From the NCBI RefSeq assembly GCF_001591385.1, contig NZ_BCUU01000009.1, positions 1-64,000 on the forward strand: a DNA stretch of 64,000 nt, read 5' to 3'. Of the stretch, positions 57,563 through 62,993 are shown one piece after another. The stretch is from Variovorax soli NBRC 106424. Its GTDB lineage: Bacteria > Pseudomonadota > Gammaproteobacteria > Burkholderiales > Burkholderiaceae_C. The translations under genes and the position numbers were made by a program. Position 1 is the stretch's first letter. Every line of letters begins with the position of its first letter. Below the pieces are notes generated by a model. It ran no database searches. It had not been told where the DNA came from and saw nothing but the letters and a program-made list of their open reading frames with translations.

Positions 57563-59368
57563 ATGGCCATGCGTTCACACTACTGCGGTCTCGTGACCGA
57601 AGCCCTGATGGGCCAAACCGTCACCCTGTGCGGCTGGGTCAACCGTCGCCGCGACCACGGCGGCGTCATCTTCATCGACCTGCGCGATCGCGAGGGCTAT
57701 GTGCAGGTGGTGTGCGACCCCGACCGCGCCGCCACGTTCGCGACGGCCGAGAGCATGCGCAACGAATTCTGCGTGCAGGTCACCGGTCTGGTTCGCGCCC
57801 GCCCCGAGGGCACGGTGAACGACCAGCTCAAGAGCGGCAAGATCGAAGTCCTCTGCCACGAGCTGAAGGTGCTCAACCCCTCGGTCACGCCGCCCTTCCT
57901 GCTGGACGACGACAACCTCAGCGAAACCACGCGCCTCACGCACCGTGTGCTGGACCTGCGCCGCCCGGCCATGCAGAAGAACCTGATGACGCGCTACAAG
58001 GTGACGATGGAGGTGCGCAAGTTCCTCGACGCCAACGGCTTCATCGACATCGAGACGCCCATGCTGGGCAAGTCCACGCCCGAAGGCGCGCGCGACTACC
58101 TGGTGCCCAGCCGCGTGCACGACGGCAGCTTCTTCGCGCTGCCGCAGTCGCCCCAGCTGTACAAGCAGATGCTGATGGTGGCCGGCTACGACCGCTACTA
58201 CCAGATCGTCAAGTGCTTCCGCGACGAAGACCTGCGCGCCGACCGCCAGCCCGAATTCACCCAGATCGACATCGAGACCTCCTTCCTGGCCGAGGACGAG
58301 ATCCGCGCCATGTTCGAGGGCATGATCCGCCAGGTGTTCACCAACGCCGCCGGCATCGAGCTGGGCGCATTCCCGGTCATGAGCTATGGCGACGCCATGT
58401 TCAAGTACGGCTCCGACAAGCCCGACCTGCGCGTGAAGCTGGAGTTCACCGAACTCACCGAGCTGATGAAGACGGTCGACTTCAAGGTGTTCTCGGCTGC
58501 GGCCAACATGCCCGGTGGCCGCGTGGTGGCCCTGCGCGTGCCCGGCGGCGGCGCAGAGGGCGGCCTCTCGCGCGGCGAAATCGACGCCTACACCGAGTTC
58601 GTCAAGATCTACGGCGCCAAGGGCCTGGCGTACATCAAGGTCAACGACGTGGCCGCCGGCCGCGAGGGCTTGCAAAGCCCCATCGTCAAGAACATCGGCG
58701 ACGACGTGCTGGCCCAGATCATCGAGCGCACCGGCGCACAGAACGGCGACCTGCTGTTCTTCGGCGCGGACAAGGCCAAGGTGGTCAACGACGCCATCGG
58801 CGCGCTGCGCATCAAGATCGGCCAGAGCGCCTTCGGCAAGAAGGCGGGCCTGTTCGAAGACCGCTGGGCCCCGCTGTGGGTGATCGACTTCCCCATGTTC
58901 GAATACGACGAGGACGGCCAGCGCTGGAGCGCGGTGCACCACCCCTTCACCAGCCCCAAGGACGGCCACGAAGACCTGATGGACAGCGCGCCCGAGAAGT
59001 GCCTGGCCAAGGCCTACGACATGGTGCTCAACGGCATCGAGATGGGCGGCGGCTCGGTGCGTATCCACCGCGAGGAAGTGCAGAGCAAGGTGTTCCGCGC
59101 CCTCAAGATCGATGCCGACGAAGCGCAGGCCAAGTTCGGCTACCTGCTCGACGCGCTGCAATACGGCGCGCCCCCGCACGGCGGCATCGCCATCGGCCTG
59201 GACCGCCTGGTCATGCTGATGACCGGCGCCGAGTCCATTCGCGACGTGATCGCCTTCCCCAAGACCCAGCGCGCGCAGGACCTGCTCACCCAGGCCCCGA
59301 GCCCGGTCGACGAGAAGCAGCTGCGCGAGCTGCACATCCGCCTGCGCAACCCGACGCCTGCGGGCTGA
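57563..59368 (+). CDS. aspS: aspartyl-tRNA synthetase
   Basis: Class IIb synthetase of 601 residues with an N-terminal OB-fold anticodon domain ([20 protein letters not shown]), class II motif 2 ([18 protein letters not shown]), the bacterial GAD insert in the middle and motif 3 ([13 protein letters not shown]). Whether it is discriminating or non-discriminating cannot be decided from motifs alone. It follows DUF502 by 60 bases. A terminator follows. Confidence 0.97.
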
Positions 59369-59413
59369 CGCGGGCGCCCGACGGGCGAGCAGGCTTCATT
59401 CGCCGCACAACAA

Positions 59414-59448
59414 AAAAACGCCGGGGTGATGCCCGGCGTTTTTGTTTC
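59414..59448. terminator. bidirectional terminator between aspS and the oxidase lipoprotein
   Basis: AAAAACGCCGGG / CCCGGCGTTTTT is a perfect 12-base stem with a 6-base loop. T-rich tracts lie on both strands. It ends aspS and the convergent lipoprotein gene. Confidence 0.9.
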
Positions 59449-59498
59449 TGCCGGTCATCGCACGTCAGGCGCGACGACCGGCGTTGTCCGGCAATCGA

Positions 59499-62309
59499 TC
59501 AGCTCGAGGCACTGCCCCGGCACGCCAGGCCCACCGCATCGATGTACCAGCCGGCACGGCCGTAAAGCCCATTCGCCGGCTGCCCGTTGGCGCAGGCAGC
59601 GCCGTTGGCCGTTCCGTTGGCATTGCCGGCACCGTCCAGCGTGGTCACGCCAGCCTTGAGCCGCCCCGGGCTGGCCAGTGGCTGGCATTGGAGGGTGATG
59701 TGGTTGACGTAGGCGCCGGTCCGCACGCCGAAGCCGCTGACCGCCTGATCGGCAGGGCAGAGCCGGCTGAAGGGGCTGCCGCCGTTGTTGCCGGCTGCGC
59801 CGCGGCCGATCACGTCCGAAGACCACTTGCCCCATTCGTCGACCTTCGCGCACAGCGGCGCGAGCTTGTCGAGATTGCCGCCGGAACGGCCGCTGACGCC
59901 CACGAGCACTTCGTCGCTGTGGCAGGACAGGGCGAAGGGCGATCCACCGGTGCTGCTGCCGAACGAGCTAGTCTTCGAGGCGGTGAAGAAGGGGAATGCG
60001 GCAGCCGTGTCTTCGCTGCGGCACAGCAGGCCCACCGCGTCCACCGAAGCGCCCCAGCGCCCGTAGAGGCCCCGCGCAACGCCTTCGGCGCCGCAGCGCC
60101 GGTAGGCACGTTCGGTGCCGCCTGCGCCACCCACGGCGGCCAGCGCTGTGGGCACGCCGCCGGCGCGGTTGAGGCCGCTGAGCGGCTCGCACGAGACGAC
60201 GATGTTGTCGGTGCGCGCGCCCGAGCGTCCGCTGTAGCCCACCACCGCCTGGTCGCGCGGGCAGGTGCGGGTGTAGGCCCCGCCCTCGGTGCCGCCGTAC
60301 GTCTTCTCGTTGTACGGCTCGCCGATCCAGCGGCCGGCCTTGTCGACGCGCACGCATTGCGCACCGATGTTCCTCACCTCGTTGTTCGAGGACCCCTGGA
60401 TGCCCGCCAGCACTTCGTCGCTCTGGCATTCAGAGGTGAAGCTCTGGCCCCCGCCCCAGTTGCCGATGGTGCCCAGCCAGTCGGCGTGGATGGCCTGTCG
60501 GGCGCCTTCGTTCATCGACACGATCTTGGCGACCGACGGCACGCCGGCGGTGTCGATCAGGAACAGCATGTAGTAGCCCGGCGGGACCACCGCGCCATTG
60601 GTCGGCACATGCGCCTGGAGCGTGTTGCCGGTCTGCTGCATGTCCAGTGGCACGCGCCGGTTGTCGAAGCTGAAGGAGTGCGTGACCGAGCCGGTGCGCA
60701 GCAGCACCGCCTTCGAGATGGGCAGGCCGCTGTTGACGCCGATGGAGATGATCTGCCCCGGCGTGAGGGTGTCCGGTGCGGAGGTGATCTGCGGGCGCGG
60801 CGCGGGTTCGCCATTGGGGCCGAAGAGGTAGGGCGGCGAATAGCGCTCGGCGGTCTTGTAGTTCACGCCATCGATCGCGTTGACATTGTCGGCGGGGCGC
60901 ACCCCGGGCGCTCCACCCCCGGCGACGAGCACGGTGGCATCGGGAAGCAGAATGGCGCTGGAGTGATAGAGCCGCGGGTCGGTGCCCACGGCACCGACGC
61001 TCCACTGGCCCACGGCCGGATCCCACATCTCCGCCGCGTTGTTGACGCCCACGAAGCGGTTGTCGACTTCACTCCCGCCCGTGACCAGGACCTTGCCGTC
61101 CGGAAGCACGGTGGTGGTGCCCCAGAAGCGTTTGGTCGACGTCGGTGCCGTCTCGCTGACCTGGGGCACCGGCCGGTTGATTCCGATGCGCGCCACGCGA
61201 TTGCTGTTGGCGCCCATCTGCAGGATCTGGCCGGGCGTGTACATGGCGGCACTGGAGCCCTTCGCAGCGAAATCCTTGACGAGGTTGGTAACCCGCTGGA
61301 CGTAGCCCCGGTCCCGCGGATCGACGAAGAACATGAGGCCGTCGATGTCCAGGCCGAAAATCCGGTCGTCCGGCGTCAGGAAATTGCGCGGATACCAGTA
61401 GCTGAAATTGTCGGTGGGCGCGTCCTCGAGGAGCCTGAACGTGCCGTCCTTGGCGCGCACTTCGGGCCTGTCGTTTCCGCCGGCGCCGCCGGCGATGAAG
61501 ATTTGCGCATCGGACAAGGTGGTGACGGTGGCATACCACCGCTCCCGGTTGAGGCCCTTGGCCGGACTCAAGGTATTGGTGCCCGGGTCGAAGAGCGCGG
61601 TGTCGCGGGTTCGGAGGTTGTAGCCCACTGGGGGATCGCCCGGCTCGTATTGATCGCCGCCTGCCAGGAACAACTGCCCGCTGCCCGCGAGCAGGGTTTG
61701 CGCATTGCAGAAGAGGTCGGTGCCGGTCATGTTCGGCAGCGTCAGGTGCCCTGCATCCAGGGCGCCGGCCGGATCCCAGACGTCATAGATGAGCTTGCCG
61801 GTCTGAAGCATTCCGGTGCCGTCGGTGCCGTAGGTCATCACGCGTCCGTCGGGCAGCAGGGCAGAGTGAATGGCGATGAGCGGCCAGGTCGCCCGGGGCG
61901 TCCAGCCGCCCTTGGCGTTGGCATCCGGTGCGGCGGCGGGCGCCACGGCGGCCCTGGTGGACTTGACGTCGTTGTCAGCCGTCACGGTGCGGGTCGTCAG
62001 TTGGGCGAGCTTCTGAGATGCCCAGTTCAGCGCAGAGTCGTAGTTGCTCTCCGGCTGGCGCTGAGGCGGCGGAATGTCCGTCGTCAGCGCGTTGGAAGCG
62101 CCCTGGGGCGCCGCCGCCATGTTGCCCGTGCCTTCAGCCCGGCCCGCTTGCGCGATCGGGTCGCCATTCGCCGATTGGACGGCGGCGGACTGGCCGCTTT
62201 CACCGCCGCTGCCGCCTCCGCCGCAACCGGCAAGCAGGGCAACGACCGCGGATGCCGAAACGACGGCCCGTAGCCGCTGAATACCCCTGGGGACTGAATG
62301 CATCTTCAT
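59499..62309 (-). CDS. secreted lipoprotein: galactose/glyoxal-oxidase-like copper radical oxidase with C-terminal repeat domain
   Basis: Lipoprotein of 936 residues. The lipobox LLAGC puts the acylated cysteine at C29. Residues 130-605 are a kelch-type beta-propeller plus DUF1929 domain like galactose/glyoxal oxidases (family AA5). All copper and radical residues appear: C201 (DLFCNAQTLL) and Y259 (RERWYATVTTL) for the thioether pair, Y448-H449 (DPRLYHSSAILLP), H544 (SVTHSFSFDNRRVP). Residues 628-930 hold six repeats bracketed by C-x23-C. A strong AGAGAGGAAA site precedes the start. It is convergent with aspS and divergent from nudB. Substrate unknown. Confidence 0.85.
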   Translation of the reverse strand: MKMHSVPRGIQRLRAVVSASAVVALLAGCGGGGSGGESGQSAAVQSANGDPIAQAGRAEGTGNMAAAPQGASNALTTDIPPPQRQPESNYDSALNWASQKLAQLTTRTVTADNDVKSTRAAVAPAAAPDANAKGGWTPRATWPLIAIHSALLPDGRVMTYGTDGTGMLQTGKLIYDVWDPAGALDAGHLTLPNMTGTDLFCNAQTLLAGSGQLFLAGGDQYEPGDPPVGYNLRTRDTALFDPGTNTLSPAKGLNRERWYATVTTLSDAQIFIAGGAGGNDRPEVRAKDGTFRLLEDAPTDNFSYWYPRNFLTPDDRIFGLDIDGLMFFVDPRDRGYVQRVTNLVKDFAAKGSSAAMYTPGQILQMGANSNRVARIGINRPVPQVSETAPTSTKRFWGTTTVLPDGKVLVTGGSEVDNRFVGVNNAAEMWDPAVGQWSVGAVGTDPRLYHSSAILLPDATVLVAGGGAPGVRPADNVNAIDGVNYKTAERYSPPYLFGPNGEPAPRPQITSAPDTLTPGQIISIGVNSGLPISKAVLLRTGSVTHSFSFDNRRVPLDMQQTGNTLQAHVPTNGAVVPPGYYMLFLIDTAGVPSVAKIVSMNEGARQAIHADWLGTIGNWGGGQSFTSECQSDEVLAGIQGSSNNEVRNIGAQCVRVDKAGRWIGEPYNEKTYGGTEGGAYTRTCPRDQAVVGYSGRSGARTDNIVVSCEPLSGLNRAGGVPTALAAVGGAGGTERAYRRCGAEGVARGLYGRWGASVDAVGLLCRSEDTAAAFPFFTASKTSSFGSSTGGSPFALSCHSDEVLVGVSGRSGGNLDKLAPLCAKVDEWGKWSSDVIGRGAAGNNGGSPFSRLCPADQAVSGFGVRTGAYVNHITLQCQPLASPGRLKAGVTTLDGAGNANGTANGAACANGQPANGLYGRAGWYIDAVGLACRGSASS

Positions 62310-62519
62310 GGTTTCCTCTCTGAGCGATATTTGTGTGATGCCTCGAGAGGACCGCGCGCCATTTCGGCGAATGCAGATTCGATGGGAATGACACAGCGAA
62401 CCATCCCTTGGCGGGCGCAGTATGGGCGGCGAGCCATCCTCTGAAATTCAACTTTCTTCAGCCGTGCAATAGCATGTCGGTCCGGTCCCGCCCACTGCGC
62501 AAGAGCCCCGCTGCATCCC

Positions 62520-62993
62520 ATGACGGTCCCTGCCAAGCCCTACAAGATCCCCGAGTCCGTGCTGGTCGTGATCTACACGCCGGCGCAAGACGTGCTGCTC
62601 ATCCGGCGCGCCGACGCGCCGGACTTCTGGCAGTCGGTCACCGGCAGCAAGAACACGGTGGACGAGCCTCTGACGCTGACCGCCTCGCGCGAGGTGTACG
62701 AGGAAACGGGCATCGACTGCCGCCCCGGCACGCCGCTGTCCGCGCGACTGCGGGCCTGGAACGTTTCCAACGTCTATTCCATCTATCCGCAATGGCGATG
62801 GCGCTACGCGCCGGGCGTGCTGCGCAACACCGAGCACCTGTTCGGCCTGTGCGTTCCCGAGCGCATCGAGCCGGTGCTCGAGCCGCGCGAGCATGACGCC
62901 TGGCAATGGCTGCCGTTCCGGCAGGCGGCCGACGCCTGCTTTTCGCCGTCGAACGCCGAAGCGATCCTGTTGATGCCAAAATTTCTGGAATGA
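62520..62993 (+). CDS. nudB: dihydroneopterin triphosphate diphosphatase
   Basis: Nudix enzyme of 157 residues removing pyrophosphate from dihydroneopterin triphosphate in folate synthesis. It has YKIPESVLVVIYTPAQDVLL, FWQSVTGSKNTVDE and the Nudix helix ASREVYEETGI. The stop overlaps the next start (ATGA). folE, the preceding pathway step, lies 800 bases downstream. Confidence 0.92.
   Translation: MTVPAKPYKIPESVLVVIYTPAQDVLLIRRADAPDFWQSVTGSKNTVDEPLTLTASREVYEETGIDCRPGTPLSARLRAWNVSNVYSIYPQWRWRYAPGVLRNTEHLFGLCVPERIEPVLEPREHDAWQWLPFRQAADACFSPSNAEAILLMPKFLE

Follow-up and report, generated by a model that had tools for sequence, protein, structure and literature searches.

We examined a stretch of 64,000 nucleotides from Variovorax soli NBRC 106424 (contig NZ_BCUU01000009.1, positions 1 to 64,000; hereafter the window), in which one gene on the minus strand encodes a 936-residue lipoprotein with an oxidase core and a tail of six cysteine-paired repeats. 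We consider it probable that this is an exported lipoprotein in which a tandem, disulfide-paired jacalin lectin holds a copper radical oxidase on a glycan, where it produces hydrogen peroxide. As part of that interpretation, the tail is in our judgement likely to comprise two jacalin-related lectin domains of β-prism I fold in tandem (residues 608-767 and 768-936), each of the six repeats being one Greek-key lobe. The features are as follows.

59499..62309, minus strand: whole gene, 936-residue lipoprotein with a copper radical oxidase core, then two jacalin-related lectin domains (open reading frame (ORF), Pfam)
62223..62309, minus strand: putative signal peptide ending at the lipobox LLAG-C29, with Gly at +2 and then a Gly/Ser-rich stretch (read from the translation)
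60504..61922, minus strand: predicted oxidase core, residues 130-602, galactose/glyoxal oxidase type plus early set (E-set) domain (Pfam; alignment to PDB 9g43)
60516..60797, minus strand: galactose-oxidase-like E-set domain, residues 505-598 (PF09118, 83.5 bits, cut-off 25)
60009..60488, minus strand: predicted jacalin-related domain A, residues 608-767, lobes 1-3 (Pfam Jacalin; alignment A3)
59502..60008, minus strand: predicted jacalin-related domain B, residues 768-936, lobes 4-6 (Pfam Jacalin; ortholog domain predicted as β-prism I)
60354..60428, minus strand: lobe 1, C628-C652, without GXXXD (NNEVR)
60189..60263, minus strand: lobe 2, C683-C707, GXXXD as GARTD
60021..60095, minus strand: lobe 3, C739-C763, GXXXD as GASVD
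59850..59924, minus strand: lobe 4, C796-C820, GXXXD as GGNLD
59685..59759, minus strand: lobe 5, C851-C875, GXXXN as GAYVN
59520..59594, minus strand: lobe 6, C906-C930, GXXXD as GWYID

The protein contains 14 cysteines, namely C29, C201 and twelve that form six pairs (628/652, 683/707, 739/763, 796/820, 851/875 and 906/930; residues 628-930, positions 59520-60428). Each pair is spaced exactly 24 residues apart, as the first-pass annotation of this DNA had counted, and the motifs that it quoted as common to lobes 1 and 4, 2 and 5, and 3 and 6 are present in the translation. When 12 cysteines were placed at random in 327 residues, at most four such pairs arose in 20,000 trials; the six-pair spacing is far beyond chance. 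Identities were summed over three 25-residue cores for all 15 pairings of the six lobes, and the pairing 1-4/2-5/3-6 ranked first in the window protein (36 identities) and in the ortholog L034 (31 identities), while in the ortholog L033 it shared the top score of 30, leaving the lobe order there undecided by identity alone. In L033 and L034 alike, each of the six pairs has the spacing of 24. Because this pairing is best or tied best, the unit is, as judged by alignment, a lobe triplet that has been duplicated, and the repetition of three lobe types in order described earlier is borne out. Six repeats with a period of 55-57 residues, of which lobes 3 and 4 follow one another with no linker (33 residues from C763 to C796 against 31-32 in the other between-lobe gaps), would also suit closure into one six-bladed β-propeller whose blades are four-stranded sheets of ~55 residues; we hold this to be very improbable and count it, already disfavoured, among the rejected readings.

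The whole tail matched the Pfam family Jacalin (PF01419) with 41.0 bits at a curated cut-off of 22, and domain B alone matched it with 34.2 bits. An orthologous domain, 51% identical to domain B of the window, was predicted as a β-prism I and matched jacalin-type lectins in fold. (MAFFT alignments of shifted lobe triplets merely overlapped the lobes and were left out of the folding input.) The first-pass annotation had recognised no named domain in the tail; these results supply one, with a confident match, for the fold, to a described family of known function, an outcome that the annotation itself had named as refuting its proposal. What computation upholds of that annotation is two three-lobed β-prism copies, probably carbohydrate-binding and most likely with a disulfide in each lobe, on an oxidase lipoprotein. 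The β-trefoil that it also offered is supported neither by the Jacalin match nor by the model.

A search for the triplet in other proteins, as had been proposed, found it in single copy in four otherwise differing ones (L032, L036, L037 and L043), which were retrieved with either the triplet profile or the window tail as query. L032 is a PASTA lipoprotein whose triplet scores 26.4 bits against Jacalin, above the cut-off, and L036 has the triplet and no further domain that we found. L037 (1321-2829), from another genome of the same order, has a cysteine-paired jacalin-like triplet, one lobe of which has a spacing of 27, preceding a CAP (cysteine-rich secretory protein) domain. In L043 (298-2118), a protein of 606 residues, the triplet stands at the start, and the end has CXXCH motifs like those of cytochromes, for which the profile matches lie below cut-off; two of its three lobes have a spacing of 24 when counted by eye, and no match to Jacalin was listed at E <= 1.

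The core matched the glyoxal/galactose oxidase profile PF07250 with 38.6 bits (cut-off 37.5). In the alignment to galactose oxidase 9g43, residues C201, Y259, Y448, H449 and H544 stand opposite those of the thioether bond and the copper site, and all five are invariant in the window protein and the two orthologs; by analogy with galactose oxidase, we take them to be the Cys-Tyr pair and the Tyr, His and His copper ligands, respectively. On the evidence of these alignments the core is an AA5-type copper radical oxidase of the galactose/glyoxal oxidase type. Its score against the GlxA equivalog NF052501 was 163 bits, below the cut-off of 800.

Three loops (GG, recognition and binding) form the sugar site of jacalin-type mannose lectins, and the common motif is GXXXD (PMC4059138). 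GXXXD is present in four of the six window lobes (2, 3, 4 and 6), and Gly-Gly precedes the core in five of the six. Among 27 lobes of six proteins, a count that excludes L043, 26 have the spacing of 24, and of these 18 have GXXXD and 22 have GXXXD or GXXXN. The tail probably binds sugar, which by motif would be of the mannose/glucose type. Both cysteines of a lobe align with both of a VMO-I lobe, although weakly (hhalign probability 7.4%). Because the protein would be secreted and its cysteines are conserved, we infer disulfide formation, most likely as one putative bond per lobe that ties the segment following the GG loop to the lobe's final strand. The module would then combine jacalin sugar loops with a putative VMO-I-like lock, since the jacalin-type site motif is present, the cysteines align with those of VMO-I, and the disulfides of other jacalin-type lectins differ.

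Relatives in the genus and order have the same oxidase core with differing tails. Our survey covered 14 tails, six of them scanned with Pfam; L015 and L017-L028 lay outside it. Seven tails consist of Pro-Ala-linked cysteine repeats (L008, L009, L011, L012, L013, L030 and L031), two contain DUF5648 (L006 and L029), and L010 (1084-4224) has, behind its E-set, a legume lectin domain of 131.4 bits together with a bulb-type lectin match below cut-off. L005 ends in a short proline-rich segment that includes a hydrophobic stretch, neither L007 nor L014 has a tail, and L016 has an unrelated extension. The position behind the oxidase core therefore resembles a site at which modules can be swapped, a lectin among them. 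This supports, without proving, an interpretation in which the oxidase is held on a glycan by its two jacalin domains.

The seven tails with Pro-Ala-linked repeats, among them L008 (1477-4245) and L012 (1366-4473), each have three to five copies of a unit of ~40-50 residues that approximates VxYGADTRWVxKTVxGxxxCTNxFFGTDPAPxxxKSC, with long Pro-Ala linkers between the copies. A single copy of 49 residues was compared with Pfam families and PDB chains and matched none.

Several results weigh against a jacalin pair holding an oxidase on a glycan. Domain A alone scored 20.7 bits against Jacalin, below the cut-off, as did the triplet of L036 (17.3 bits), and for L037 no match to Jacalin was listed at E <= 0.01. 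AlphaFold2 with a three-sequence alignment returned no fold for the window's own double domain (predicted local distance difference test (pLDDT) 38.2); the confident model is that of the ortholog's domain B only, for which one of five models had a mean pLDDT of 37.7. The comparison with VMO-I was weak (score 23.5 against no more than 21.2 in 200 shuffles), and only one of the six other relatives' oxidases scanned with Pfam has a lectin domain. In the core, the Trp that 9g43 has in GGSWSGG stands opposite a two-residue gap in the window sequence, and the orthologs have GGSGG at this position. We take this Trp to be W290 of galactose oxidase, which stacks on the Cys-Tyr cofactor; it is not known to be defining for all AA5 members. 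Because it falls in an alignment gap, the substrate may differ from that of galactose oxidase. Finally, lobe 1 has neither GXXXD nor GXXXN, lobe 5 has Asn for Asp, lobe 6 lacks the GG loop, and exact GXXXD is absent from lobes 4 and 6 of L033 and lobes 2 and 6 of L034.

These gaps in the site motif (two of the six window lobes, one of which has GXXXN, and four of the 12 ortholog lobes, two of which have GXXXN) would fit a tail that keeps its β-prism fold and has lost sugar binding, serving the extracellular oxidase as a rigid, protease-resistant spacer or as a protein-protein contact, and the main function of VMO-I, a relative by cysteine pattern, is itself described as uncertain (PMC9363672). 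We think such a loss unlikely, however, given that the window protein, L033 and L034 each keep GXXXD in four lobes, in differing combinations, where the chance of G and D at both motif places is ~0.8%, and that a legume lectin domain occupies the same place on one relative's oxidase. A somewhat smaller likelihood attaches to a tail that binds chitin-like or acidic glycans instead of mannose/glucose. Reported ligands of VMO-I, whose cysteine positions the tail matches, are heparin and oligomers of N-acetylglucosamine (PMC9363672), and the tail gave a weak match to VOMI (PF03762), below its cut-off of 25; yet the Jacalin score lies far above that for VOMI (41.0 against 16.8 bits), and the motif is of the jacalin type, which VMO-I lacks at the equivalent place when inspected by eye.

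In the glycan-holding mechanism that we favour, the protein would be exported and lipid-anchored at C29, LLAG-C29 presumably being a lipoprotein signal by the lipobox rule, and the cysteine pairs of the lobes would be oxidised outside the cytoplasm. The double lectin would bind a glycan, of mannose/glucose type by motif, and keep the copper radical oxidase core there; the anchored core would oxidise alcohol or aldehyde groups, releasing hydrogen peroxide. Either the aldehyde or the peroxide may be the product of importance. Our statements on substrate, biological role and exposure at the cell surface are inferred. More speculatively, and with little expectation that all of it holds, the tail might represent a distinct bacterial class of jacalin domain with a VMO-I-like lock in each lobe and griffithsin-like sites, four to six per tail, on this oxidase a multivalent lectin, hardened for the extracellular space, that aims hydrogen peroxide at mannose-rich surfaces, for example the walls of fungi or plants. 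If true, this would link the sugar-binding jacalin branch of the fold with its disulfide-rich VMO-I branch, add a disulfide-pinned, multi-site jacalin form to bacteria, provide a naturally hardened relative of griffithsin, and offer a case, open to testing, in which binding modules swapped among relatives direct an oxidase.

At E <= 1e-5 the triplet profile identified three of 101 genomes of the genus, the window's own included, and in each of them it found two domains on such an oxidase. It also identified three of 399 genomes drawn from the order and three of 398 drawn from the phylum, with the window's own genome and G588 in both draws; the window tail alone (E <= 1e-4) identified two of 399 genomes drawn from the family, its own included. 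PF01419 itself gave no match in the window's own genome or in 14 control genomes, a result that carries no information. The three genomes have the oxidase gene in three unlike places, with neighbours named from their ORFs: between aspS and a nudix gene in the window (59368-62520), by an amino-acid permease and methylmalonyl-CoA mutase genes in L034, and, in L033, near a gene resembling an autotransporter and one for a response regulator. A search with aspS gave a match in 29 of 31 genomes. Across 26 other aspS loci of the genus (L049-L074, one per genome) a nudix gene lies within 1.5 kb in 25 and the oxidase in none, L061 having neither; in the fragments L075-L077, which are outside these 26, the place is not reached or neither gene is shown. 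Because nudix is near aspS in 25 of 26 loci and the oxidase in none, the oxidase gene was probably gained at this place, and the region looks like an insertion.

A viral or plasmid origin of the module was considered and rejected. The pattern from A1 matched 21 viral-contig stretches, none of which encodes a relative. The strict lobe pattern, which has three exact matches in the window and none in 100 shuffles, matched four viral contigs, three with an internal stop and one in a low-complexity frame that we judged unrelated by eye. TBLASTN searches gave no match for the tail in plasmids or phages, nor for the L032 triplet in plasmids.

Among known proteins, the jacalin-related lectins (PF01419; griffithsin, banana lectin, Parkia lectin, ZG16p) share with the tail the β-prism I, the three lobes, the GG loop and GXXXD. 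Tandem domains are also known in them; the 447-residue Parkia lectin, for instance, is matched at three positions by the triplet profile. They differ from the tail, in which each lobe contains a C-x23-C pair: PPL2 has the disulfides C37-C109 and C63-C134 (PMC4223035), which from their spacing we judge to be between lobes, and ZG16 has a CXXC on a flexible tail (PMC9291870). VMO-I (1vmo), with three ~53-residue repeats and four disulfides at the base of its prism (PMC9363672), resembles the tail in repeat length, in its β-prism and in cysteines at equivalent lobe places as aligned, but has a longer within-lobe spacing and no GXXXD at the equivalent place; 1vmo was absent from the best 50 fold matches listed for the ortholog domain, which excludes nothing. 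Tandem VOMI domains occur with another lectin in rotifers (PMC8878817). Dermatopontin (DERM, PF14704) matched weakly over lobes 1-2 (21.4 bits, cut-off 28.3), and the literature searched yielded no paper that treats dermatopontin together with a β-prism. The AA5 copper radical oxidases, including galactose oxidase and bacterial GlxA, share the core fold, the E-set, the copper ligands and the Cys-Tyr pair with the window protein, which differs from them in being a lipoprotein with a C-terminal double jacalin-type tail; galactose oxidase has its carbohydrate-binding domain at the N-terminus and is counted among the enzymatic lectins (PMC12355970). A 2017 survey listed 227 bacterial proteins with jacalin-type domains, 69.6% of the bacterial ones being fused to EEP domains (PMC5536079). 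Because jacalin-type domains are thus known from bacteria, and no report of a per-lobe-disulfide jacalin domain or of a jacalin domain paired with such an oxidase was among the papers listed in our literature search, we regard the tail as an unusual version of a known lectin fold and not as a new one.
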